A stretch of DNA of 25,928 nucleotides. It comes from a virus. How positions within the stretch are numbered: the stretch's first letter is position 1; each line of letters starts with the position of its first letter. The stretch spans positions 1 through 25,928 of IMG/VR virus record IMGVR_UViG_3300030104_000529; one strand, given 5' to 3'. Below, in pieces: positions 1 through 25,928 of this stretch. Under the pieces are notes generated by a model. The model made no database searches and was not told the origin of the DNA. It saw nothing but the letters and a program-made list of their open reading frames with translations. Made by a program: the position numbers and the translations under genes.

Positions 1-443
1 ACTAGCCTCCCACCACTTTCGATAGTCAACGTCACACCTGATGCTATACCTAATGTGCCTGTAGCTGTAGCATTTTCTGTGGCTAGTATGGTAGTGCTTA
101 TATCCATACTCTGTGCGTTTAATCTAAACATACCACCATTTTTAAAGTTACCTTTGAATTGTTCTTCAGGTACAACAGAAGCTCCACCTGTCTCTAGGAA
201 GTATACAAAGATATTATTACCTGAGTTAGAAGAAGGTGCAGCACTAAAGGTTAGTGTTGACCCATCAGGTACAGTATAAGCAGCAGTGTCTTGTATAACA
301 CCATCTACTGACACAAGTATGTCTTGTACAGAGCCAATAGTTCTACCTAGTGCAAAGGTTGTGTCTGAACCATCACCACTAAACCTGACAACAGCAGGAG
401 CAGTCTGAAAGTTAGACTCTGGTTCTACTCCAATATAGGGCAT
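1..443 (-). CDS. Tail fibre protein, N-terminal part (cut by left edge)
   Basis: An open frame starts at the ATG whose first base is 443 and stays open to base 1, giving 147 codons. It begins MPYIGVEPESNFQTA, continues with a VRFSGDGSDTTFALG segment and then a DILVSVDGVIQ / YTVPDGSTLTF pattern. This N-terminal beta-rich module is common at the start of fibre and receptor-binding proteins of marine and T7-like phages, where it anchors the fibre to the virion; the receptor-binding end would lie outside the window. It starts one base after the stop of the gene at 445-855, so it is the next cistron of the leftward late operon. The family assignment is by recall of the pattern and is fairly secure; the length and the C-terminal type are unknown. 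Confidence 0.8.
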   Translation of the reverse strand, partial: MPYIGVEPESNFQTAPAVVRFSGDGSDTTFALGRTIGSVQDILVSVDGVIQDTAAYTVPDGSTLTFSAAPSSNSGNNIFVYFLETGGASVVPEEQFKGNFKNGGMFRLNAQSMDISTTILATENATATGTLGIASGVTLTIESGGRL

Positions 444-444
444 A

Positions 445-855
445 TTATGTTATCTCCATGATGCTTAATGCTCCAGATAGTTTATCTGCTACACTACAAG
501 AAATTGTTATTGTATCAGTGGGTTGCATAATTACCTTTCCTCCTGATAATAATTCTAAGGTTGAACCTACAGGTATAGGTGCGTTATTTAACAACACCGC
601 AGTGGTATTATTATTTGCACCTCCCCCTGTTCCTGCACCTATGTTATTTGTTTGACTAGCAGAACCAGTTCCCCCTGTAGTATCAGACTCAAGAAGAACT
701 TTTGCTGTTACCTGTGAGGTGTGAATGTTTGTTAACATAAGACCAATAACAACTGTTGTTGTGCTACTTGGAGTCGTGTATATGTGATACTCACTCCCAT
801 CTGACGTACTTGCAGGTTCTGCTGCAAATGTTAATACTCTAAATGTATTTGCCAT
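445..855 (-). CDS. Small beta-rich virion protein, probably tail/fibre associated
   Basis: This encodes 136 residues starting MANTFRVLTFAAEPAS. It is rich in Thr, Ser, Gly and Val, with alternating beta-strand-like stretches (TTTVVIGLMLTNIH, KVIMQPTDTITISCSV) and a Gly/Asn-rich loop in the middle (about residues 66-83). There is no signal peptide or membrane segment. A good ribosome-binding site (AGGAGA) lies in the 13-base gap after the fibre gene at 869-3100. Its place between two fibre genes suggests a small virion component, such as a fibre accessory or a decoration protein. I do not recognise a named family. Confidence 0.75.
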   Translation of the reverse strand: MANTFRVLTFAAEPASTSDGSEYHIYTTPSSTTTVVIGLMLTNIHTSQVTAKVLLESDTTGGTGSASQTNNIGAGTGGGANNNTTAVLLNNAPIPVGSTLELLSGGKVIMQPTDTITISCSVADKLSGALSIMEIT

Positions 856-868
856 CTTTTTCTCCTAA

Positions 869-3100
869 CTATCCAAGGGCAATCGCAAGTGCCGTAGGGT
901 CGTCTGTGGAAAACCCTGCACTACTTAAATATGTTTTCACATCTGTTAATGCTACTTGTTTCATTGTTCCATCGTCATTTGTTACTAATCTATCTGCATC
1001 TGCAAGTGTAGTAGATGAAGCAGCCGTATTACCATCCATTATGTTTAACTCTGCTGCTGTAGCTGCTACGTTAGTACCACCTATGTCTAAGGTAGTTACA
1101 GATATTTCACCTGCTACTGTTGCTATACCATCTGCTAGTGTTATAAGGTCTGTATCATCTGTGTGACCTATAGTTGTACCATTTATTGCTACATTGTCAA
1201 CGGTTAATGCAGATAGTGTACCTAATGATGTAATGTTTGTTTGTGCTGCAGTTTGTAGTGTACCAGATAATTGTGTCGCTGTCAACCTTCCTGTGCTAGG
1301 ATTATAAATTAAATCACCATCTGACTCTAATCCTATGTTTCCACCGTCTACATCTCCACCTGCAGTAAAGATAATAGCATTATCTTCATCTGTACTTTCA
1401 TTATCTGAAATAGTTACAGTTGTTGCTACTGCAGCAGTTGTTGCATTAGTAACTGTTACACCTGCTATAACGGTGTTTAGTGCAGTGCCACCTACAGTAA
1501 TAGCATCGGCTTCTAGTGTTCCATCAACATCAACGTCACCATCAATGTCAGCATTTCCTGTTACTGTAATGCTGTCTACATAAGCATCTTTCCAACGAAC
1601 AGATGAAGAACCTAAATCTACATCGCTATCAGATTGTGGTCCAAATATGTTATCAGCTAAATATACCTGTTCTACATTGTTTGCATAAAAGTGTATCTCG
1701 TCTGCTGTTTCAAAATCAATTTTAGTCTGATCATCTTCACCAATCTTTATGTCTGTCGCAAGTAAAGAAGTTATACCTGTTTGTGCTGCGTCAATGCTCA
1801 TCACAGAGCTAGAAGCGGATAAGCCTGTTCCTGCAAATAAGGTTGCAAGAGAGGCTATCGTTGTAAGTTGTTCATTTGCTCCATCAGAGTCTATTGTAGC
1901 TAATTTATCACCATCAGCAGGAGTCACATCACTTAATTCAGACAGATCAAGTGTTAAAGTTACTGCACCTGATGCACCGCCTCCACTTAAACCTACACCT
2001 GCTGTTACACCTGTAATATCACCTACAGAGGCTGACACATACGTAACAAGATCAGATGCAGGTATTTGTTTAGTTGTAGTGCCATCAATAATTAGAAACG
2101 CATCAGCATCCGCTATTGTAATTGAACTTGTTGATTTGGCTGAACCGTCTAATAGATTTAACTCTGCAGCCGTTGATCCTACAGCAGTGCTACCTAGTGT
2201 AAGCTGACCATCAGGAACTACAAGTCCTGCAGCACCGCCTAGTATAAGGTCATCTGCTGATGTATCCCATAGCATGTATGCTGAAGCTGTGTCACCAAAG
2301 AATTTAACATCGTAACCTGCGTCATCTACACCAACAGTTAAAGCAGCGTCAATCTGCACAGCACCGTCAATGTCAACAGCATCTAAGTTAGTTGTGCCAT
2401 CAATATCAACATCACCAGAAATATCTAAGTTAGTAAATACAGATGTACCTACGGCTGTTATTTTATCATTAAAAGTAACTGCACCTGCTTCTGACATATC
2501 TATAGTCATAGCAGTTATAGCTGAACCACCATCGTTACCCTTAATTGAAAAGTCTTTGTCGGATACTTTAGTTTCAAGTATAACATCACTAGAGCTATTA
2601 TACAGACGAGCCATTTCTGTACCGTCATCTTCGTAAATAATGCCACTTGCTGCTGTTCCTGCATCTAAAGTAATACCTCCTGCAGATTCTATATTAATTG
2701 AATCTACGGCTGTACCATCTGAAACAATGTCTAAGTCTCCGTCTGCATTACTAGATATGTAAAGACCTGTATCTCTAAACTGTAACTTTTCATTTGTAGC
2801 TATAAGTATATCATCTGAAAACTCAAAGTAGTCTTCATCTTCCATCCACTTAAGTTCACCGTCAGCAGACTCACCATCAAAAGTAATAGTAATATCTGTA
2901 CCTGCAGTACCTGCACCAAATGTAAGAGTATTACCAAGAAGTTTAGTAACTGGTCCACCTTCGGCTGCAGTGCCGTCATGTGTGTGTCCTGTACTGGCTG
3001 CAAACGCTGCTAATAACTGGTTAAACTCGTCATTAGTGTGTGCGGCTGTGATAACATCTCCGTCACTATACGTAGACTGTCTTGTATACGTTGCTCCCAT
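869..3100 (-). CDS. Tail fibre / receptor-binding protein with repeated beta modules
   Basis: This 743-residue protein begins MGATYTRQSTYSDGD and includes the stretch ITAAHTNDEFNQLLAAF followed by TGHTHDGTAAEGGP. That N-terminal layout is typical of fibre proteins in marine phages. The body is Asp/Thr/Gly-rich repeated beta structure (many short xVDIDGTxxLDAV-type units) that likely forms an elongated trimer. A roughly 50-residue module occurs twice, near residues 309-360 (AAELNLLDG, ITIADAD, TKQIPASDL) and 682-729 (AAELNIMDG, TTLADAD, MKQVALTDV). The start directly abuts the upstream stop at 3101, with AGGAG inside the end of that gene. The likely role is host attachment at the tail. No enzymatic domain is visible. 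Confidence 0.85.
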   Translation of the reverse strand: MGATYTRQSTYSDGDVITAAHTNDEFNQLLAAFAASTGHTHDGTAAEGGPVTKLLGNTLTFGAGTAGTDITITFDGESADGELKWMEDEDYFEFSDDILIATNEKLQFRDTGLYISSNADGDLDIVSDGTAVDSINIESAGGITLDAGTAASGIIYEDDGTEMARLYNSSSDVILETKVSDKDFSIKGNDGGSAITAMTIDMSEAGAVTFNDKITAVGTSVFTNLDISGDVDIDGTTNLDAVDIDGAVQIDAALTVGVDDAGYDVKFFGDTASAYMLWDTSADDLILGGAAGLVVPDGQLTLGSTAVGSTAAELNLLDGSAKSTSSITIADADAFLIIDGTTTKQIPASDLVTYVSASVGDITGVTAGVGLSGGGASGAVTLTLDLSELSDVTPADGDKLATIDSDGANEQLTTIASLATLFAGTGLSASSSVMSIDAAQTGITSLLATDIKIGEDDQTKIDFETADEIHFYANNVEQVYLADNIFGPQSDSDVDLGSSSVRWKDAYVDSITVTGNADIDGDVDVDGTLEADAITVGGTALNTVIAGVTVTNATTAAVATTVTISDNESTDEDNAIIFTAGGDVDGGNIGLESDGDLIYNPSTGRLTATQLSGTLQTAAQTNITSLGTLSALTVDNVAINGTTIGHTDDTDLITLADGIATVAGEISVTTLDIGGTNVAATAAELNIMDGNTAASSTTLADADRLVTNDDGTMKQVALTDVKTYLSSAGFSTDDPTALAIALG

Positions 3101-18811: not shown

Positions 18812-19078
18812 TTACTTTTTTCCGACTTTACCGCCTTTACTCATAAAGCCCATTTTGTTTCTTACGGCTCTAGGCAATTTTGCTAAACCTTTATCACCCT
18901 TAGGTACAGGCTTCATAGCACCCTTGCCTTTTGCTTTTTTATCAGCAGCAGCAGGTATATCGCCTCCTTTAGCGTAGCTTTTTCCGTAGCCTTTCTTTTT
19001 CATCATGCCACCACCCATCATTTTAGCTTTAGGTGGTCTACCTCGTTTACTTCCGTATGTACCTTTTCCCATTGGCAT
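18812..19078 (-). CDS. Very basic small protein with AT-hook-like motif
   Basis: This encodes 88 residues starting MPMGKGTYGSKRGRPPKAKM. KRGRPPK (residues 11-17) matches the AT-hook core (GRP flanked by basic residues) that binds the minor groove of AT-rich DNA. The rest is Lys/Gly/Met-rich with KGG-type motifs (YAKGGDI, MSKGGKVGKK). Similar small proteins are common in marine phage genomes, where they lie in the terminase-lysis segment. A DNA-compacting or virion-packaged DNA-binding role is inferred. It is preceded by a start 3 bases after the HNH-like gene. Confidence 0.75.
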   Translation of the reverse strand: MPMGKGTYGSKRGRPPKAKMMGGGMMKKKGYGKSYAKGGDIPAAADKKAKGKGAMKPVPKGDKGLAKLPRAVRNKMGFMSKGGKVGKK

Positions 19079-19081
19079 AGT

Positions 19082-19303
19082 TTATCTCCTTGATCTGTTT
19101 TTACTAGCAGATATTACCCTAAGATTACTTCTGCTATTGTTAGAGGTGTTTTTATCTTTATGGTCTACGTCTTTTCCATCACCTTTACGAGCTAGACCTG
19201 CTCTTACCATTTTGCGCCTTGCATTATTACGCTCTGCTCTCTTCTTCTTAACTTTAGGTGTGCCATCGTATCTAAGATACTCTTTTTTGTAGTTCCTAGC
19301 CAT
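19082..19303 (-). CDS. Small HNH-endonuclease-like protein
   Basis: This encodes 73 residues, very basic at the N-terminus (KVKKKRAERNNARRKMV). Residues 45-70 read DVDHKDKNTSNNSRSN then LRVISASKNRSRR: the D-V-D-H start, N-x-x-N-N spacing, S-N-L and a final Asn are the HNH_3-type pattern. His48 and the Asns at 59-60 and 69 would be the metal and catalytic residues. Full HNH nucleases have an N-terminal beta segment that is minimal here, so it may be a minimal nuclease or an inactive relative. HNH proteins near terminase often help cleavage for packaging. The function is an inference from motif and neighbourhood. Confidence 0.7.
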   Translation of the reverse strand: MARNYKKEYLRYDGTPKVKKKRAERNNARRKMVRAGLARKGDGKDVDHKDKNTSNNSRSNLRVISASKNRSRR

Positions 19304-19591
19304 CTAACACTTCCATCGTTTTCTTGCCTGTCGTAATCTGCTGTTAGGATCTTTAGCTGCTTTAGGAAACTGTTTCATTTGTCCTGCACTTCTAGCACAA
19401 TATGATTTACGTCTACTTGCAGCTTTACTACCTTTTTTTACTTTGCCTGTAACAGCCGTTTGCAGCTTACTTCCTGGATTATCTCTTCGGTACTTAGCTA
19501 CACCTTTCTTAGTCATACCTGCGCCACTCTTAGTAGGACGTTTATGACCACCGCCTATGGTGTGACCTTTCATTGTACCCTTTGTTGCCAT
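19304..19591 (-). CDS. Basic conserved phage protein (DUF6321-like)
   Basis: This encodes 95 residues, Lys/Arg/Gly-rich, with the conserved-looking end RRKSYCARSAGQMKQF ... PNSRLRQARKRWKC. The pattern GVAKYRRDNPGSKLQTAV plus KSYCARSAGQ and the terminal R-K-W-x-C is well known in marine phages, and I associate it with DUF6321, though I could not check that. The two Cys (one in CARS, one at the C-terminus) may pair or bind metal. Its start overlaps the stop of the upstream gene by one base (TAATG). Function unknown; likely DNA- or RNA-binding from charge. Confidence 0.75.
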   Translation of the reverse strand: MATKGTMKGHTIGGGHKRPTKSGAGMTKKGVAKYRRDNPGSKLQTAVTGKVKKGSKAASRRKSYCARSAGQMKQFPKAAKDPNSRLRQARKRWKC

Positions 19592-19821
19592 TAGAACTCT
19601 ATCTTATAGTTTACCTGTAGTTTACCTTTTCCTGTTTTAGGATTAAACTTAGTGCCTTTAAACATACTACCTAGCTTTTTAGCTTTATTTAACCAACCAC
19701 TATTCATAGGTAGGTTATCATAGCTAGGGCTATCTGCAGATTTTGATGAGCCGTAAGTCTTTACTAAGTTTTTTACGGCTCTTAGTTCTTCTGCGTCTTT
19801 ATGTTTTTTAAACTTTCTCAT
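19591..19821 (-). CDS. Small basic hypothetical protein
   Basis: From the ATG at 19821 (MRKFKKHKDAEELRAVKNLV) it encodes 76 residues. A longer reading from 19878 would overlap the upstream gene by 56 bases; the shorter start lies one base after that gene's stop, which I prefer, although its ribosome-binding site is weak. The N-terminal half is helical and charged; then a Ser/Tyr segment (GSSKSADSPSYDNLPM) and a Lys-rich end with KFNPKTGKGKLQV. No recognised domain. Confidence 0.65.
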   Translation of the reverse strand: MRKFKKHKDAEELRAVKNLVKTYGSSKSADSPSYDNLPMNSGWLNKAKKLGSMFKGTKFNPKTGKGKLQVNYKIEF

Positions 19822-19822
19822 A

Positions 19823-20104
19823 TTAATTATAGAACATACCTTTTCTACGATCTGTATGTCCTTTTTTAACTGATCCACCTTTAGCCATTTTTGTTTTAGT
19901 TGTTTTCTTTTTAGCTAGACCACCTTTGTTTAACCCTACAAATTGTGACGGTAAACCTTGTACTTTCATTAAATCCTTTTCAAACTTGCGTAGATCTTTT
20001 CCTATGCTTTTTCTAAGACTACTTGATAAAGTATCATCTTTTAGTAACTCTTCTAACTCAAATATTTTATTTCCTATAAACTTTATAAGTGCTTCATCTG
20101 ACAT
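19823..20104 (-). CDS. Helical protein with KGG-type basic tail
   Basis: This encodes 93 residues starting MSDEALIKFIGNKIFELEEL. The first 50 residues form amphipathic helices (KDDTLSSSLRKSIGKDLRKFEKDLMKV). The tail is basic and contains VGLNKGGLAKKK and AKGGSVKKGH, the same N-K-G-G type motif found in the giant ejection protein and in two neighbouring small proteins. Soluble, no membrane segment. Function unknown; the recurring motif may be a targeting or packaging signal. Confidence 0.7.
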   Translation of the reverse strand: MSDEALIKFIGNKIFELEELLKDDTLSSSLRKSIGKDLRKFEKDLMKVQGLPSQFVGLNKGGLAKKKTTKTKMAKGGSVKKGHTDRRKGMFYN

Positions 20105-20116
20105 TTTACTTTCCTC

Positions 20117-20569
20117 CTAGTTAAGTTCAAAATGTGGACCATCAATAAATGGTCTTCTACCCTGAGATCTACGTAAGTCAATGTAAGCCATCATAGCTTC
20201 TTCCATTGTGCCATCCCATGTAGATATGTCATCTATATGCCAAGCTGCTCCCCATCTAATCTTAGTTCCAGACTCTGTAGCTGCCCACTTCATAGCATCA
20301 GCTAGATCGTCATACAGATTGAGTTCCCAACTTGCCTTTCCGTCTACGTAAGCCATTAAGTCTACTGCGTCACCTGTTAGGTGCTTACTCTTCATAGTCT
20401 GTGACTTTCCTGCGTCAAACAACTTCTTCTGTTCTTCCAGTGTTCTCATTCCGTAGATAACACCAAAGTCAATTTTTGTGAGTTCTATCGCTCTTTGAAC
20501 AACCTTAACTAGGTCTTCATTTACTCCCTCTAGTTTGTCTAGGGATCTGCTCGACAGTGTGTAAGCCAT
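20117..20569 (-). CDS. M15-family peptidase endolysin (L-Ala-D-Glu / VanY-like)
   Basis: This 150-residue single-domain peptidase carries the M15 signature: GMRTLEEQ (residues 40-47), SKHLTGDAVDL (61-71) with zinc ligands His63 and Asp70, and the third ligand His146 in GPHFELN. Asp113/Asp114 near RWGAAWHIDD may help catalysis. It cuts the peptide side chains of peptidoglycan to lyse the host. There is no signal peptide, so it depends on a holin; the holin-like gene lies upstream (20874-21242) in the same operon. The giant virion protein carries a separate lysozyme domain, so this one is likely the lysis enzyme. Ribosome-binding site AAAGGA. Confidence 0.88.
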   Translation of the reverse strand: MAYTLSSRSLDKLEGVNEDLVKVVQRAIELTKIDFGVIYGMRTLEEQKKLFDAGKSQTMKSKHLTGDAVDLMAYVDGKASWELNLYDDLADAMKWAATESGTKIRWGAAWHIDDISTWDGTMEEAMMAYIDLRRSQGRRPFIDGPHFELN

Positions 20570-22720: not shown

Positions 22721-22740
22721 TGTCAAACATTATTTAGCTT

Positions 22741-22769
22741 ATAGTAGCATATTAAGGTATAAAACACAA
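22741..22769 (-). promoter_or_regulatory. Candidate promoter for the leftward operon
   Basis: On the minus strand, TTGTGT (22769-22764) is followed after exactly 17 bases by TACTAT (22746-22741). Both boxes are moderate matches to sigma70 (three and four of six). Start of transcription would be near 22735, just before the first leftward ATG at 22720. The TAGTTTTAACT repeats lie directly upstream, where an activator or initiator protein could sit. Confidence 0.45.
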
Positions 22770-22773
22770 GAAA

Positions 22774-22859
22774 TAGTTTTAACTTTATAGTTTTAACTAT
22801 TAAAAAAGTAGTAATATAAAATAGTTTTAACTTATAGTCTTAACTTAATAGCTTTAACT
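22774..22859 (+). repeat. Five TAGTTTTAACT-type repeats (iteron-like)
   Basis: Copies start at 22774, 22788 and 22822 (TAGTTTTAACT, identical), 22835 (TAGTCTTAACT) and 22849 (TAGCTTTAACT). Distances are 14, 34, 13 and 14 bases. Each unit is itself a near-dyad, AGTT-TT-AACT. Such an AT-rich array in a divergent intergenic region is typical of replication-origin iterons or of multiple operators. Confidence 0.75.
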
Positions 22860-22883
22860 ATGTTATACCACAGAATCACAGGG

Positions 22884-22913
22884 TTGTCAAGCGACATATT
22901 GTCACAGTATAAG
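22884..22913 (+). promoter_or_regulatory. Weak candidate rightward promoter
   Basis: TTGTCA at 22884-22889 is followed after 18 bases by TATAAG at 22908-22913. It would make a long leader of more than 400 bases before the first rightward gene, so either that leader is regulatory or this is not the real promoter. Confidence 0.3.
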
Positions 22914-23079: not shown

Positions 23080-23141
23080 GGAAAAATTTAAAACTCAAAT
23101 AATAAAAACATTTAGAATAATTCTAAAAACTGGAATCCCAT
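23067..23141. repeat. Nested inverted repeat
   Basis: The outer arms ATGGGATT (23067-23074) and AATCCCAT (23134-23141) are perfect complements. Inside them TTTAGAAT-A-ATTCTAAA (23111-23127) is a perfect eight-pair dyad. It could extrude as a stem-loop in DNA or fold in RNA of either strand. Confidence 0.7.
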
Positions 23142-23221
23142 AGTTAATAAATAATAATAACTAGGTTACTGATTTATAAGACTAAACAATCTGATAAAGT
23201 ATCAGTTAGTAAAAGCATATC

Positions 23222-23319
23222 GGAGCAATGGTTACGTTTGTAACGGTTTTATTTAAAACTAAGAGTCTGGTGCATGATTAATATTTTAAATTTTACTATA
23301 TACACTGCTCCTATTTTTT
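23222..23319 (+). ncRNA. Candidate structured small RNA or leader/attenuator
   Basis: GGAGCA (23222-23227) pairs with TGCTCC (23306-23311), with a mismatch and two more pairs inward, and the closing arm is followed after TA by six T (23314-23319), like an intrinsic terminator. Inside are GTTAC-GTTT-GTAAC (23231-23244) and GTTTT-ATTT-AAAAC (23246-23259). The whole would be a branched RNA of about 98 nt ending 50 bases before the first rightward gene. It does not match a tRNA. Not recognised as a known RNA family. Confidence 0.4.
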
Positions 23320-23369
23320 GGTAAAAAGAGTAATAATTTAAACCTTTAATGATTCGGAAAGATTCTAAA

Positions 23370-23660
23370 ATGAAAAACACAAATTACAAAACAGACTCAA
23401 TAAACTTTCAAAATATTACTCCAGTAAAAAAAGCTTTTGATTTAAGCGAATATGATATGCTTCAAAATTTAAGAGGCGAAAATAATAAGCTACAATGCGA
23501 AAAGGACGCACTCGTTAAGTTAGCAAATAATAGATATGATGAAATTGAAAACCTAAAAGAAGAAAACCAAAAATTAGAGAATCTAGTTAAACATCTAAAA
23601 ACTGAAATGAGAGTCGCTAGAAGTTTTTTAGAATATGAAAATAACGAGGACTTAAGATAA
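23370..23660 (+). CDS. Coiled-coil protein, first gene of the rightward cassette
   Basis: From the ATG at 23370 (MKNTNYKTDSINFQNITPVK) it has 96 residues. An ATG 21 bases upstream is in frame, but 23370 has the GATTC-TAAA-ATG arrangement shared with the other genes here, so I choose it. Residues about 36-80 form a leucine-zipper-like coiled coil (LRGENNKLQCEKDALVKLAN, EIENLKEENQKLENLVKHLK). Very AT-rich coding. Likely a dimeric regulator or adaptor; no family recognised. Confidence 0.7.
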   Translation: MKNTNYKTDSINFQNITPVKKAFDLSEYDMLQNLRGENNKLQCEKDALVKLANNRYDEIENLKEENQKLENLVKHLKTEMRVARSFLEYENNEDLR

Positions 23661-23664
23661 TAGT

Positions 23665-23711
23665 GAATCCTATAAGCCGATTCAAATACAAGAGTCGGCT
23701 TATGGATATTC
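23665..23711 (+). terminator. Long hairpin after first cassette gene
   Basis: The left arm starting GAATCCTATAAGCCGATTC (23665-23683) pairs with the right arm at 23692-23711, which reads GAGTCGGCTTATGGATATTC, with a bulged T and a G-U pair; the loop is AAATACAA. The stem has about 15 pairs. The T-run after it is poor, so it may be a processing or stability hairpin rather than a full terminator. Confidence 0.6.
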
Positions 23712-23756
23712 ATTTAAGAATATCAACAAACCAAACAATGACAATAGGAGTCAAAA

Positions 23757-24089
23757 ATGATTACATTTAATTTAAATAATATAACTAGAGGTGAAACAAT
23801 CAAAGGTGGATTAACACCAGTTAGAGTTTTAATAACGGCTTTTGATTTATGGCGCAAAGGTAATAAACCAGTTATCCATAGGAAGAATCCACAGGAGAAA
23901 GGTTTTTTCGTTAGGTTGGGTAATGGTGGAAAGTCTGGAGAACCTCTTTTAAGATTAAACTTTGGCAATTCTTATTCTTGCTTTCAAGCATATGATCGCA
24001 ATGGTTATTCTAGGATTAACCAAAACGGAATCGTAAGGCATAAAAGAAAAGCTAACGGAGTCAAATTGACTCAACGTCTAGCAAGTTAA
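23757..24089 (+). CDS. Hypothetical early protein, basic
   Basis: This encodes 110 residues starting MITFNLNNITRGETIKGGLT. It contains PVRVLITAFDLWRKGNKPVI and a basic, Gly-rich second half (RLGNGGKSGEPLLRLNFGN, RHKRKANGVKLTQRLAS). No membrane segment. The ribosome-binding site is AGGAGTC, 4 bases before the ATG, preceded by AACCAAACAA, a leader shared with the gene at 24162. It lies between two hairpins, so it is likely a separate message. Function unknown; nucleic acid binding is possible given the charge. Confidence 0.75.
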   Translation: MITFNLNNITRGETIKGGLTPVRVLITAFDLWRKGNKPVIHRKNPQEKGFFVRLGNGGKSGEPLLRLNFGNSYSCFQAYDRNGYSRINQNGIVRHKRKANGVKLTQRLAS

Positions 24090-24098
24090 TTTAAATTA

Positions 24099-24132
24099 GG
24101 AGTTTAGCTTTAATTAGCTAGACTCCATTTTT
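24099..24132 (+). terminator. Rho-independent terminator
   Basis: GGAGTTTAGCT (24099-24109), loop TTAATT and AGCTAGACTCC (24116-24126) form an 11-pair stem with one G-U pair, followed by ATTTTT. It ends the message of the gene at 23757-24089. Confidence 0.8.
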
Positions 24133-24161
24133 AAATTAATAAACCAAACAAGGAGTCGAAA

Positions 24162-24359
24162 ATGAAATTTAAATTTAATCAAATACTACTTAATGAAAAA
24201 GGTAATTCTATTTCTATAGTTCAACACAAAAACTATGATGATGAAATTCTGGTCCAAGAAATAGGTTTAAATATTATGCAAGACAATGAAAAGATAATAC
24301 GTTTTAATAATTTAGATAGTTTAATTGAAGCATTAACTGAAATTAAGAAAGGACTCTAA
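24162..24359 (+). CDS. Small hypothetical early protein, acidic
   Basis: This encodes 65 residues, MKFKFNQILLNEKGNSISIV onward, a beta-rich start then an acidic helix at the end (NNLDSLIEALTEIKKGL). The ribosome-binding site AAGGAGTC is 4 bases before the ATG and follows AAACCAAACAA, the same leader as at 23757. Two bases separate its stop from the next gene start, so the two form a pair. Small beta/alpha proteins of this type are typical of phage host-takeover regions; no family is recognised. Confidence 0.72.
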   Translation: MKFKFNQILLNEKGNSISIVQHKNYDDEILVQEIGLNIMQDNEKIIRFNNLDSLIEALTEIKKGL

Positions 24360-24360
24360 A

Positions 24361-24558
24361 ATGACAGCTACAAGTTTTCTATATAAAAAAGACTGGGGAA
24401 TCTCAGATACCAAAATCCGTAAAGCTAAAATAAATGTTAAGCGATTTATAAGGAATCAGACTCCAGAAAAGCAAAAGCAATTGATAGAATACATTAAGAC
24501 TATTAAAAAAGACCATATTAATTTTAGAACTAAAAGAAAAAACACAAGGAGTCTTTAA
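24361..24558 (+). CDS. Small basic hypothetical early protein
   Basis: This encodes 65 residues starting MTATSFLYKKDWGISDTKIR. It is Lys/Arg-rich and helical (KINVKRFIRNQTPEKQKQLI, KTIKKDHINFRTKRKNTRSL). The start follows GGACTC-TAAA; the last codons of the upstream gene supply the ribosome-binding site. The stop overlaps AAGGAGTC, which serves the micro-ORF at 24561. Charge suggests nucleic acid binding or inhibition of a host enzyme; no homolog is recognised. Confidence 0.72.
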   Translation: MTATSFLYKKDWGISDTKIRKAKINVKRFIRNQTPEKQKQLIEYIKTIKKDHINFRTKRKNTRSL

Positions 24559-24560
24559 CT

Positions 24561-24632
24561 TTGATTGATTATGATTTAATAATAGTAGTACTAACAATAT
24601 TAATTTTAATAGGAGTCGCACTATGCCGTTAG
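24561..24632 (+). CDS. Predicted 23-residue membrane micro-protein (TTG start)
   Basis: A TTG at 24561 lies 9 bases after GGAG within AAGGAGTC, and opens a frame of 23 codons reading (M)IDYDLIIVVLTILILIG then VALCR and stop. Residues about 5-21 are a single hydrophobic helix with an acidic N-terminus and an Arg end. The stop overlaps the next gene start by 10 bases, and the frame carries that gene's own AGGAGTC. There is no ATG in frame. The spacing and the hydrophobic helix make it plausible; otherwise this would be a 64-base gap. Confidence 0.5.
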   Translation: MIDYDLIIVVLTILILIGVALCR

Positions 24633-25321
24633 ATAATATAGGACACGTTTCAAAACTTAGAGGAAAACTTGATAAATTTCAAGCTATAGGAAACAATACT
24701 AAAAAGAATAAGTTTTGTTATGATAGGTATATTGAAGCTAAGAAGAAAAATGATTTAGCTTGTAAGATTGTTGATATTTGTGGAGTCTGTTATTCCCATA
24801 AATCAATGAATAGCTATATGAAAAACTTACCGTTATCATTAGACAAAAATGAAATACTAGCAGAAAAACTATTGAGTGACTTAGAGGTTAAACAATTCTT
24901 TTTTCTACAATCCTTTTTTAGATTTAATCATCATGGGGAATTACTAACTGAATTAGTAGATGATTACGGAGTCACAATAAAAACCTTTCCTAAATATAAT
25001 ATGATTGAAAACTATTGTAGGATATCTGAATACAATCCACATTGTACATTTGCTTTATGGACTAAAAGAACAGATATAATAAAAAGATATTTCGACAAAA
25101 GAGAAAAACCAAAGAACTTAATAATAGTTTTTTCTAATACTAAAGTAGACAAGGTTATTACTAAAATACCTAAACATTTCGACAAGGTTTTCAATAATGT
25201 TAATGGGGATAACTTTAAAGAGATTCAAAATTGCACTGGTCAAAAATGTAAAGATTGTTTGAGATGCTACAAACATTCAGACAAGCTAGAAGATAATATC
25301 ATTGTAGAAAAAACAAAATAA
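24623..25321 (+). CDS. Cysteine-rich gp88-like phage protein
   Basis: This encodes 232 residues starting MPLDNIGHVSKLRGKLDKFQ. Seven Cys form two clusters: C47-x5-C53-x2-C56 (ACKIVDICGVCYS) and C204-x4-C209-x2-C212-x2-C215 (NCTGQKCKDCLRCYKH). Between them come FFFLQSFFRFNHHGEL, CTFALWTKRTDIIKRY and NLIIVFSNTKV. This order (CxxCY, an F-R-x-x-x-x-G-E/D segment, a W-T-x-R segment, a C-terminal Cys cluster) matches the phage gp88-like family (PF17338), which I recall but could not search. The clusters could hold a metal or an iron-sulfur centre. The function of the family is unknown. It is the largest gene of the rightward block. Confidence 0.68.
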   Translation: MPLDNIGHVSKLRGKLDKFQAIGNNTKKNKFCYDRYIEAKKKNDLACKIVDICGVCYSHKSMNSYMKNLPLSLDKNEILAEKLLSDLEVKQFFFLQSFFRFNHHGELLTELVDDYGVTIKTFPKYNMIENYCRISEYNPHCTFALWTKRTDIIKRYFDKREKPKNLIIVFSNTKVDKVITKIPKHFDKVFNNVNGDNFKEIQNCTGQKCKDCLRCYKHSDKLEDNIIVEKTK

Positions 25322-25341
25322 AATCAATAACTTAAAGCCCG

Positions 25342-25379
25342 GATTTTGGTTTAGCTTTTCAAAAAGTTAAATCAAAATC
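25342..25379 (+). terminator. Long 18-bp inverted repeat after the gp88-like gene
   Basis: GATTTTGGTTTAGCTTTT (25342-25359) and AAAAGTTAAATCAAAATC (25362-25379) are complementary over 18 positions with two G-U pairs, separated by CA. There is no T-run on the plus strand after the stem. It may end or protect the message, or mark the edge of the cassette. Confidence 0.55.
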
Positions 25380-25380
25380 T

Positions 25381-25500
25381 ACGGTCATCAAGATGGGATG
25401 GGATGGGAAGTTTTAGATGGGATGGGATGCCTTACGGTCATCATGGGATGGGATGGGAAGTTTAAATTAGGATGGGATAGTAATGGGATGGGATGGGAAG
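25381..25500 (+). repeat. ATGGG repeat array with duplicated ACGGTCATCA unit
   Basis: ACGGTCATCA occurs at 25381-25390 and 25434-25443, each followed by ATGGGATGGGATGGGAAG (25393-25410 and 25443-25460). A further ATGGG triplet with the same AAG end lies at 25483-25500, and shorter copies are at 25417-25429 and 25472-25479. In all there are twelve GGG tracts, mostly separated by AT. This can form G-quadruplexes on the plus strand. Confidence 0.85.
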
Positions 25501-25529
25501 TATTTGATTTTAAATGATTATAATAACAG

Positions 25530-25557
25530 TTGACAAAAAACGAATCATCTATAAAAT
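25530..25557 (+). promoter_or_regulatory. Sigma70-type promoter for the DUF932-like gene
   Basis: TTGACA (25530-25535) is followed after 16 bases by TAAAAT (25552-25557), with TATAAA overlapping. Start of transcription would be near 25564, giving a leader of about 25 bases with AAGGAG before the ATG at 25589. A GAATC site lies within the spacer (25542-25546). Confidence 0.7.
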
Positions 25558-25588
25558 GGGTGACACAAACAAAAAGGAGAATCAATTT

Positions 25589-25928
25589 ATGACTATATAT
25601 GATGAAAGACCATTAACTAAGATGCCAGAAGAAATAGCATTTGACGTTTCTTTTGAGCCTACCAGATTTGACATGAGTAAGTATGTCATCAACAACAATA
25701 CTGATGAGGTGATAGGTATTGTAGGTAAAGACTTTAAATGTGCCAGTCACATTGATTTCTACCGACAAGTCAGAGATACAGTTGTAGCTGAACTTAGTGA
25801 CCATGACTTAGAGGATGCTACGTTGACTTGGCGAACTGCCAGAAACAATGCTTGGACTATGATGGATATGCGTTTGCCAAATGTGACACATAAGATAGCG
25901 ACTAGCAAACATGAGACTGATGTAGCTC
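25589..25928 (+). CDS. DUF932-like protein, N-terminal part (cut by right edge)
   Basis: The ATG at 25589 opens a frame that runs to the window end, 113 codons. It begins MTIYDERPLTKMPEEIAFDV and continues with YVINNNTDEVIGIVGKDFKC, ASHIDFYRQVRDTVVAEL and ATLTWRTARNNAWTMMDMR. The pattern (V-x-N-x-x-T-x-E-x-I-G-x-V-G-x-x-F/Y then H-x-x-F/Y) fits DUF932, a family frequent in phages and plasmids (related to YfjQ-type proteins), with no settled function. AAGGAG is 9 bases upstream. Codon use is less AT-rich than in the preceding genes, closer to the leftward block. Confidence 0.72.
   Translation, partial: MTIYDERPLTKMPEEIAFDVSFEPTRFDMSKYVINNNTDEVIGIVGKDFKCASHIDFYRQVRDTVVAELSDHDLEDATLTWRTARNNAWTMMDMRLPNVTHKIATSKHETDVA

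Follow-up and report, generated by a model that had tools for sequence, protein, structure and literature searches.

The subject of this analysis is an island of GANTC sites, the methylation site of the alphaproteobacterial enzyme CcrM, that spans the early rightward operon of a phage and recurs in unrelated phages. It lies in a 25,928-nt stretch of viral DNA (IMG/VR record IMGVR_UViG_3300030104_000529, positions 1 to 25,928), referred to below as the window, which is a 25.9-kb fragment and represents part of its virus genome only. The terminase and portal genes of the window share ~70% nucleotide identity with those of HMO-2011/CRP-2 over 84–99% of the query. By this sequence kinship, the window is a fragment of an HMO-2011-type podovirus, and such podoviruses belong to marine Alphaproteobacteria. 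We estimate at roughly 60% the probability that the block is a methylation-site island in the functional sense, i.e., a kilobase-scale methylation mark that controls early genes.

Positions 23101–25600 of the window contain 28 GANTC sites, compared to 6.3 expected from dinucleotide shuffles (none of 1000 shuffles was as high) and 6.1 expected from mononucleotide shuffles. GANTC was depleted in positions 1–23100 (40 sites vs. 54 expected), and the total for the whole window was ordinary (68 vs. 65 expected); the effect is therefore purely local. An earlier note on this DNA had counted, by eye, 27 sites in 23101–25600 and about ten in positions 1–3000. The exact numbers are 28 and nine, and the enrichment withstands the composition-matched shuffles that the note had proposed. 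GANTC ranked top of the 16 gapped palindromes of five bases in the block (z = 8.3), with the runner-up at 2.9. When the block was pooled with those of six related phages, GANTC was found 197 times vs. 43 expected (z = 26), while the second-ranked of the 256 XYNZW patterns had a z of 7.1. All four variants of the central base were present, i.e., N is free.

The selection was also visible within genes. When synonymous codons were shuffled with the protein and the codon usage kept fixed, the 31 island genes of ten phages proved to carry 191 sites vs. 105 expected (z = 13.5); the same procedure applied to six late control genes yielded no GANTC enrichment. Sites of the window were retained in 19 of 19 cases in the relative G002 (71% expected from neighbouring bases) and in 16 of 18 cases in the relative G004 (61% expected). 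Since the sites lie inside codons and persist in relatives with other genes and other ribosome-binding sites, what is selected appears to be the density of the sites in DNA. Judged from these alignments and shuffles, selection acts on GANTC at the DNA level, and a reader of mRNA is unlikely.

The island is a recurrent property of the relatives of the window phage. The gene starts in unannotated contigs used here were set by simple rules, and many of these contigs are perhaps incomplete. In each of the relatives with a full-length genome (G002, 73.6 kb; G006, 56 kb; G011, 49 kb), GANTC formed one peak, located at the junction of late and early genes, with about 10–16 sites per kb over 2–3 kb and mostly 1–2 sites per kb elsewhere. 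Four relatives (G003, G005, G006, and G011) possessed different genes upstream of or around the gene of a GP88-type protein, and the density of the island was the same: 30–39 sites per 2.5 kb in G003, G005 and G006, and 16 per kb in G011. No island was detected in G013, G014 and G015, despite late genes that are 82–86% identical at the protein level, or in G016, although its next early gene is 84% identical. HMO-2011 and CRP-2 were also without a GANTC island, and no other palindrome was enriched to a comparable strength in the island-free close relatives (L068–L075). Two observations on these contigs stand apart: the G002 contig is longer than other HMO-2011-type genomes (52–56 kb), and a cytosine-5 methyltransferase-like gene is located immediately downstream of the GANTC island in G011 (18968–20173 of the oriented contig).

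Islands were not confined to this group. The isolate CRP-6, which is unrelated to the HMO-2011 group, carried 38 GANTC sites in its last 2.9 kb vs. ~31 in the other 42 kb. Further islands were found in G021, G022, G025 and G028, with GANTC as the top palindrome in each. All five covered a short operon or region encoding a GP88- or DUF7227-type protein. Scores against the GP88 profile (PF17338) were 138 bits for CRP-6 gp68 and 89.6 bits for the G028 protein; that of the window protein is given in Table 1. The structure model of the GP88 protein had a predicted local distance difference test (pLDDT) value of 54, too poor for a structure search. The occurrence of the island at the same place in unrelated phages points to a shared, methylation-based control of early phage genes. 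In CRP-6, the divergent early junction also contains GTTGCA(A)GAATGTCAC-type repeats interleaved with CCGAATC (L259:44500–44927).

The presence of an island coincided with that of two genes, one for a small methyltransferase described below and one for the GP88- or DUF7227-type protein. In a tally that includes related members and carries no phylogenetic correction, the island was present in all eight genomes with both genes (G002, G006, G011, G021, G022, G025, G028, and CRP-6; the GP88-type assignment in G002 and G006 was made via homology to the window protein). It was present in none of the seven with the methyltransferase only (G023, G024, G026, G027, G030, Mel-JY03, and RW, the last seen in part), none of the two with the GP88-type gene only and none of the two with neither. 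Within the second category, G026 and G030 had weak local GANTC peaks, and G023 had a partial match to PHROG_2554 that fell on another part of the profile. This two-gene rule was formed on the tally genomes and then tested on isolates picked only for having both genes. GANTC counts within 1 kb of the DUF7227 gene were 28 vs. 8.6 expected in DSS3P8, 36 vs. 11.5 in RcXuper and 27 vs. 11.2 in MD18. In CRP-118, S2B, CRP-345, BDU-MI-1 and HTVC115P, which encode the protein and have no detected methyltransferase, there was no island (z from −0.6 to −3.1). The GP88 gene alone was rejected as the cause, given these five phages, HMO-2011, which has the gene and no island, and the island-free distant GP88 homologues (L010–L026).

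The methyltransferase emerged from a comparison of gene content between island-bearing and island-free relatives of the window. A protein of 176–181 aa was encoded by G002, G004, G006 and G011 and by no island-free genome, and it matched PHROG_799 (DNA methyltransferase, 4e-31). The EPCAG and TNPPW motifs, which are S-adenosylmethionine-binding and catalytic motifs of N6-adenine methyltransferases, were invariant in 23 sequences. The structure model (pLDDT 88) was close in fold to the rRNA adenine methyltransferases ErmE/KsgA and to M.TaqI; a sequence search for solved structures of the enzyme returned none. Relatives of the PHROG_799-type enzyme in the phage collection came almost exclusively from phages of Alphaproteobacteria. 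The G002 enzyme was 53% identical over 179 aa (E = 5e-62) to a prophage enzyme of the Paracoccus genome G048, which contains three 179-aa copies that are 95–99% identical to each other. The positions of these copies fit the locus numbers JCM7686_1231, _2255 and _2934 of Paracoccus aminophilus, and G048 is probably that species. Methylation of GANTC by the three P. aminophilus enzymes has been demonstrated (PMC3925955; see also the discussion in PMC5537653). Based on this homology, the enzyme of the relatives is predicted to be a small adenine methyltransferase specific for GANTC. It had no Pfam match and no significant BLASTP match to phiLM21_p027, the other proven GANTC enzyme.

The earlier note had pointed out that GANTC is the CcrM site, so that host methylation could control these genes, and had proposed to look for a CcrM-like methyltransferase elsewhere in the phage. 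The CcrM-site idea gained support from the exact palindrome with an unconstrained N, the selection within codons, the survival of the island through gene replacement and the GANTC-type methyltransferase of the relatives. The CcrM family (PF01555) was absent by profile search from the window, CRP-2 and ten viral contigs that are relatives or served for comparison; the enzyme that accompanies the island is the PHROG_799-type protein, found in the relatives and outside the window, which stops short of the locus that holds the gene in G002 and G004.

Phages of other bacteria served as a control, and their DUF7227 regions were examined for GANTC and for GATC and CCWGG, the sites of the enterobacterial host enzymes Dam and Dcm. 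In the DUF7227 early region of Klebsiella phage KpS8 (L316, 113.2–129.6 kb), GATC was found 129 times vs. 59 expected and CCWGG 55 times vs. 19. The corresponding region of Proteus phage Mydo (L318, 27–36 kb) had 95 GATC vs. 32 expected and 49 CCWGG vs. 10. Neither was enriched in GANTC, and the neighbouring regions showed no GATC or CCWGG enrichment. Of the two, KpS8 was checked for a PHROG_799 methyltransferase and encodes one. The GATC sites of KpS8 were mainly coding, with 102 in 9.6 kb of coding sequence and 13 in 3.8 kb between genes, which favours an effect exerted by host-type sites at high density in transcribed DNA. Phages PaP1 and Adzzy, which possess DUF7227 and lack PHROG_799, had no GANTC or GATC island of comparable strength. 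Around the DUF7227 gene of mycobacteriophage Adzzy (L315:1406–4158), TCGA was mildly enriched (32 vs. 16), and Yersinia phage P778 (L317) had zero GATC in 19 kb that include the DUF7227 gene.

In the mechanism that we favour, early-operon DNA would be selected for as many GANTC sites as codons, ribosome-binding sites, terminators and promoter spacers permit, with the rest of the phage genome kept GANTC-poor. A small phage DNA adenine methyltransferase of CcrM specificity, encoded elsewhere in the genome, would share the writing of the mark with the host enzyme; the sites would thus be methylated in vivo, and early-operon transcription would switch with the methylation state of the island. Early genes would most probably be turned off once the island is methylated, so sharing the fate of host-type DNA. 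Switching off is favoured by analogy with systems in which host-type and phage DNA are handled in different ways, and activation via GcrA is possible in Alphaproteobacteria.

Several observations weigh against this mechanism. The placement of the sites differs between groups (ribosome-binding sites and codons in CRP-6 and the window, promoters and codons in DSS3P8, codons in KpS8), and a single reader is therefore not an obvious explanation. The enzyme occurs without an island in Mel-JY03, RW (the part seen), G023, G024 and G027. A metagenomic contig filed as betaproteobacterial (L289) has the methyltransferase and the densest island of all (62 sites in about 4 kb), with no GP88/DUF7227 match by hidden Markov model search. 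RpAliso, looked at later, showed weaker enrichment (83 vs. 56, z = 4.0). In KpS8, CCSGG was raised as well (45 vs. 21), so the match to Dcm is not perfectly specific. Finally, the methyltransferase gene of the window phage would lie outside the fragment, its presence being expected from the relatives.

The mechanism could be part of a general strategy, a tentative idea to which we give a minor share of belief. Early genes would be written in host-type DNA, and a phage factor acting on marked DNA would silence both the host chromosome and the phage's own early genes. The early region would be loaded with sites of the host's orphan methylases (GANTC in Alphaproteobacteria, GATC and CCWGG in Enterobacteria), with GANTC purged from the rest of the genome in the alphaproteobacterial cases. 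The candidate silencing factor would be the GP88/DUF7227-type protein encoded inside the island. If true, the DNA text would itself contain the instruction to switch off.

Other explanations were weighed, beginning with the one closest to the original observation. The earlier note had reported a GANTC before all seven rightward starts of the block, and the positions are exactly as it gave them (Table 1). In ten podovirus- and siphovirus-type islands, GANTC was present in the 20 bases before 29 of 48 starts, compared to 9.3 expected from island density (p-value 5e-10); with the window and its near relative removed, the count was 20 of 36 vs. 7.1 expected. Fusion to the ribosome-binding site occurred in unrelated phages, namely at four of four starts in CRP-6 (GGAGTC or GGACTC), four of four in G028 and four of seven in G025. 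It is thus real and recurrent, yet one of several placements of the sites: GGAG followed by TC is a cheap spot for placing a GANTC. TC was absent at some of the same genes in relatives (the GP88 start in G006 and the orthologue of the gene at 25589 in G016), so the fusion is not essential, and the island itself is unaffected. A protein that reads GGAGTC in mRNA, as the earlier note had proposed for a translational regulator, would account for fusion above island density in several unrelated islands. It is nevertheless very improbable and largely refuted as the main cause, since N is free, the palindrome is exact, and sites also lie within codons, terminators and promoters. Moreover, most ribosome-binding sites of G005 and G006 are of the ordinary type, at unchanged island density (GANTC at none of four and one of four starts, respectively), and DSS3P8-type islands show no preference for them (eight of 95 starts vs. 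11.4 expected). We give practically no credence to an artefact of composition or a recent import of low-GC foreign DNA. The block does have 27–30% GC vs. about 39% in the rest of the window, but the enrichment remained in mononucleotide, dinucleotide and synonymous shuffles, islands in CRP-6 (46% GC), G021 (56% GC) and DSS3P8 are GC-balanced, and distant GP88 homologues of the same low GC have neither enrichment nor island.

Promoters host a further set of sites. In the window (rightward and leftward), G003, G005, G006, G011, G025 and RcXuper, strong promoter-like sites had GANTC between their −35 and −10 hexamers. A leftward promoter-like site of this kind was present in seven of eight island-bearing genomes examined for it (the window, G001–G005, and G011; not G006) and absent from island-free G013 and G014. 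Overall, the excess in spacers was modest (18 vs. 10.6, p-value 0.016; 41 vs. 24 under a looser setting, p-value 5e-4), and in DSS3P8-type islands GANTC peaked 30–70 bp before starts, in promoter-like spacers. Such placement would suit activation of early promoters by host GcrA–sigma70, for which methylated GANTC is required, with the phage methyltransferase pre-methylating packaged genomes and the promoters being active on entry. GcrA binds GANTC carrying N6-methyladenine and protects −35 to −10 of ctrAP1 (PMC3667746), and Phaeobacter phage MD18 encodes a GcrA-family protein (108218–108436; PF07750, 9.5e-19). However, MD18 was the only one of the 14 phages searched to encode GcrA, and a published scan of alphaproteobacterial phages found clusters of CtrA sites and no positional asymmetry of GcrA sites (PMC9437464). 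GcrA also leaves the dense coding-sequence sites unexplained, and the model lost favour because of the KpS8 and Mydo islands, which speak against GcrA as a general reader; we regard it as possible and hold it well below a methylation mark over the whole operon. Rather unlikely is a start site for packaging that is licensed by methylation, akin to the Dam-dependent pac site of phage P1 and far larger; P1 also has its own Dam methylase. The islands of CRP-6, G021, G025 and L289 are directly upstream of terminase genes, but the terminase is about 5 kb from the island in the window group, DSS3P8-type islands are 7–14 kb wide and extend across many early genes, and the island is missing from phages that carry the enzyme and lack the GP88-type gene. 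Slightly less likely again is that hemimethylation controls the island as an origin of replication or a sequestration region, in the manner of SeqA and oriC. Such a role would fit the AT-rich block of the window beside direct repeats (22730–22860) and the frequent location of phage GANTC methylase genes near replication genes (PMC5537653), but the islands of CRP-6 and of the G025 type lack an AT-rich composition, a SeqA-like protein that reads GANTC is not known, and the region in the DSS3P8 group is a long series of small genes.

Known systems resemble parts of the island. The P1 pac site holds seven Dam sites in about 160 bp and serves packaging, and P1 encodes its own Dam; a cluster of methylation sites is thus combined with a phage-encoded methylase of host specificity, as in the island phages, which, however, carry about 30–60 sites over 2–14 kb of early genes. 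In phage Mu mom and IS10, transcription is set by the methylation state of two or three promoter sites by host Dam only; unlike in the island phages, there is no island and no phage enzyme. T4 Alc shuts off host transcription specifically by reading unmodified cytosine. It is an analogy of operation only, in that host-type and phage-type DNA are told apart along the transcription unit, and it involves no methylation sites. GcrA/CcrM promoters of Alphaproteobacteria have GANTC between −35 and −10 of sigma70-type promoters, as here. These host promoters contain one or a few sites each, whereas the phage islands contain dozens over kilobases, codons and ribosome-binding sites included, and parallel GATC/CCWGG islands occur where GcrA does not exist.

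Phage-borne enzymes that mimic CcrM specificity are likewise known from P. aminophilus (JCM7686_1231, _2255, and _2934, probably of the same protein family as here) and Sinorhizobium phage phiLM21. Those reports concern the enzyme only and describe no island of sites, and phiLM21 is indeed without one (53 GANTC in 50 kb). Genome-wide depletion of GANTC has been reported for pelagiphages (Seong 2022, PMC9516812), whose genomes are poor in the host methylation site, as here; local islands were not reported. Among the open-licence papers found on GANTC, phages and CcrM and on DUF7227, none described such islands. Phage copies of host methylases of CcrM or Dam specificity are common, and their purpose is usually left as ‘protection’ or ‘regulation’. 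The island offers these enzymes a directly testable target of a few kilobases, filled separately by unrelated phages down to synonymous codons, and only where the methylase is accompanied by a GP88/DUF7227-type gene. It is likewise a first starting point for work on the GP88/DUF7227 proteins, a widespread phage group of no known function.

Table 1. Features of the GANTC island and its surroundings in the window.
Feature	Position	Strand	Remarks
GANTC island	23101..25583	.	Spans the early rightward operon; 28 sites in 23101–25600; 27–30% GC
GATTC-TAAA-ATG (GATTC 23361, ATG 23370)	23361..23372	+	Starts a 96-aa coiled-coil-like protein (23370–23660)
GGAGTC-AAAA-ATG (GAGTC 23748, ATG 23757)	23748..23759	+	Starts a 110-aa protein (23757–24089), no family
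GGAGTC-GAAA-ATG (GAGTC 24153, ATG 24162)	24153..24164	+	Starts a 65-aa protein (24162–24359)
GGACTC-TAAA-ATG (GACTC 24352, ATG 24361)	24352..24363	+	Starts a 65-aa protein (24361–24558)
GGAGTC-N7-TTG (GAGTC 24549, TTG 24561)	24549..24563	+	Starts a very short peptide (24561–24632)
GGAGTC-GCACT-ATG (GAGTC 24613, ATG 24623)	24613..24625	+	Starts the GP88-type protein
GP88-type protein, 232 aa	24623..25321	+	Weak PF17338 match, 17.8 bits, below the cut-off of 24.4
GGAGAATC-AATTT-ATG (GAATC 25579, ATG 25589)	25579..25591	+	Starts the next early gene
Inverted repeat, terminator- or hairpin-like (GCCGATTC/GAGTCGGC)	23665..23714	.	GANTC in both arms; read from sequence
Terminator-like hairpin GGAGTTTAGCT..AGCTAGACTCC-ATTTTT	24099..24131	.	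GACTC in one arm; read from sequence
Leftward (late operon) promoter-like TTGACA-ACCCTGTGATTCTGTGG-TATAAC	22862..22890	-	GANTC 22873–22877 within the 17-bp spacer
Rightward promoter-like TTGACA..TATAAA/TAAAAT	25530..25557	+	GAATC 25542–25546 between the hexamers

The TTG start of the very short peptide is plausible because the relative G004 has a 24-aa, ATG-started homologue at that place. The GP88-type protein has cysteines that were invariant across an 18-sequence alignment. The early gene that begins at 25589 runs off the end of the window; its version in the relatives is 282 aa long. Between the divergent late and early blocks, the direct repeats at 22730–22860 number about five, are of the type TAGTTTTAACT and look operator- or iteron-like. 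Runs of (A)TGGGATGGGATGGGA repeats occupy positions 25392–25500, upstream of the promoter-like site at 25530.

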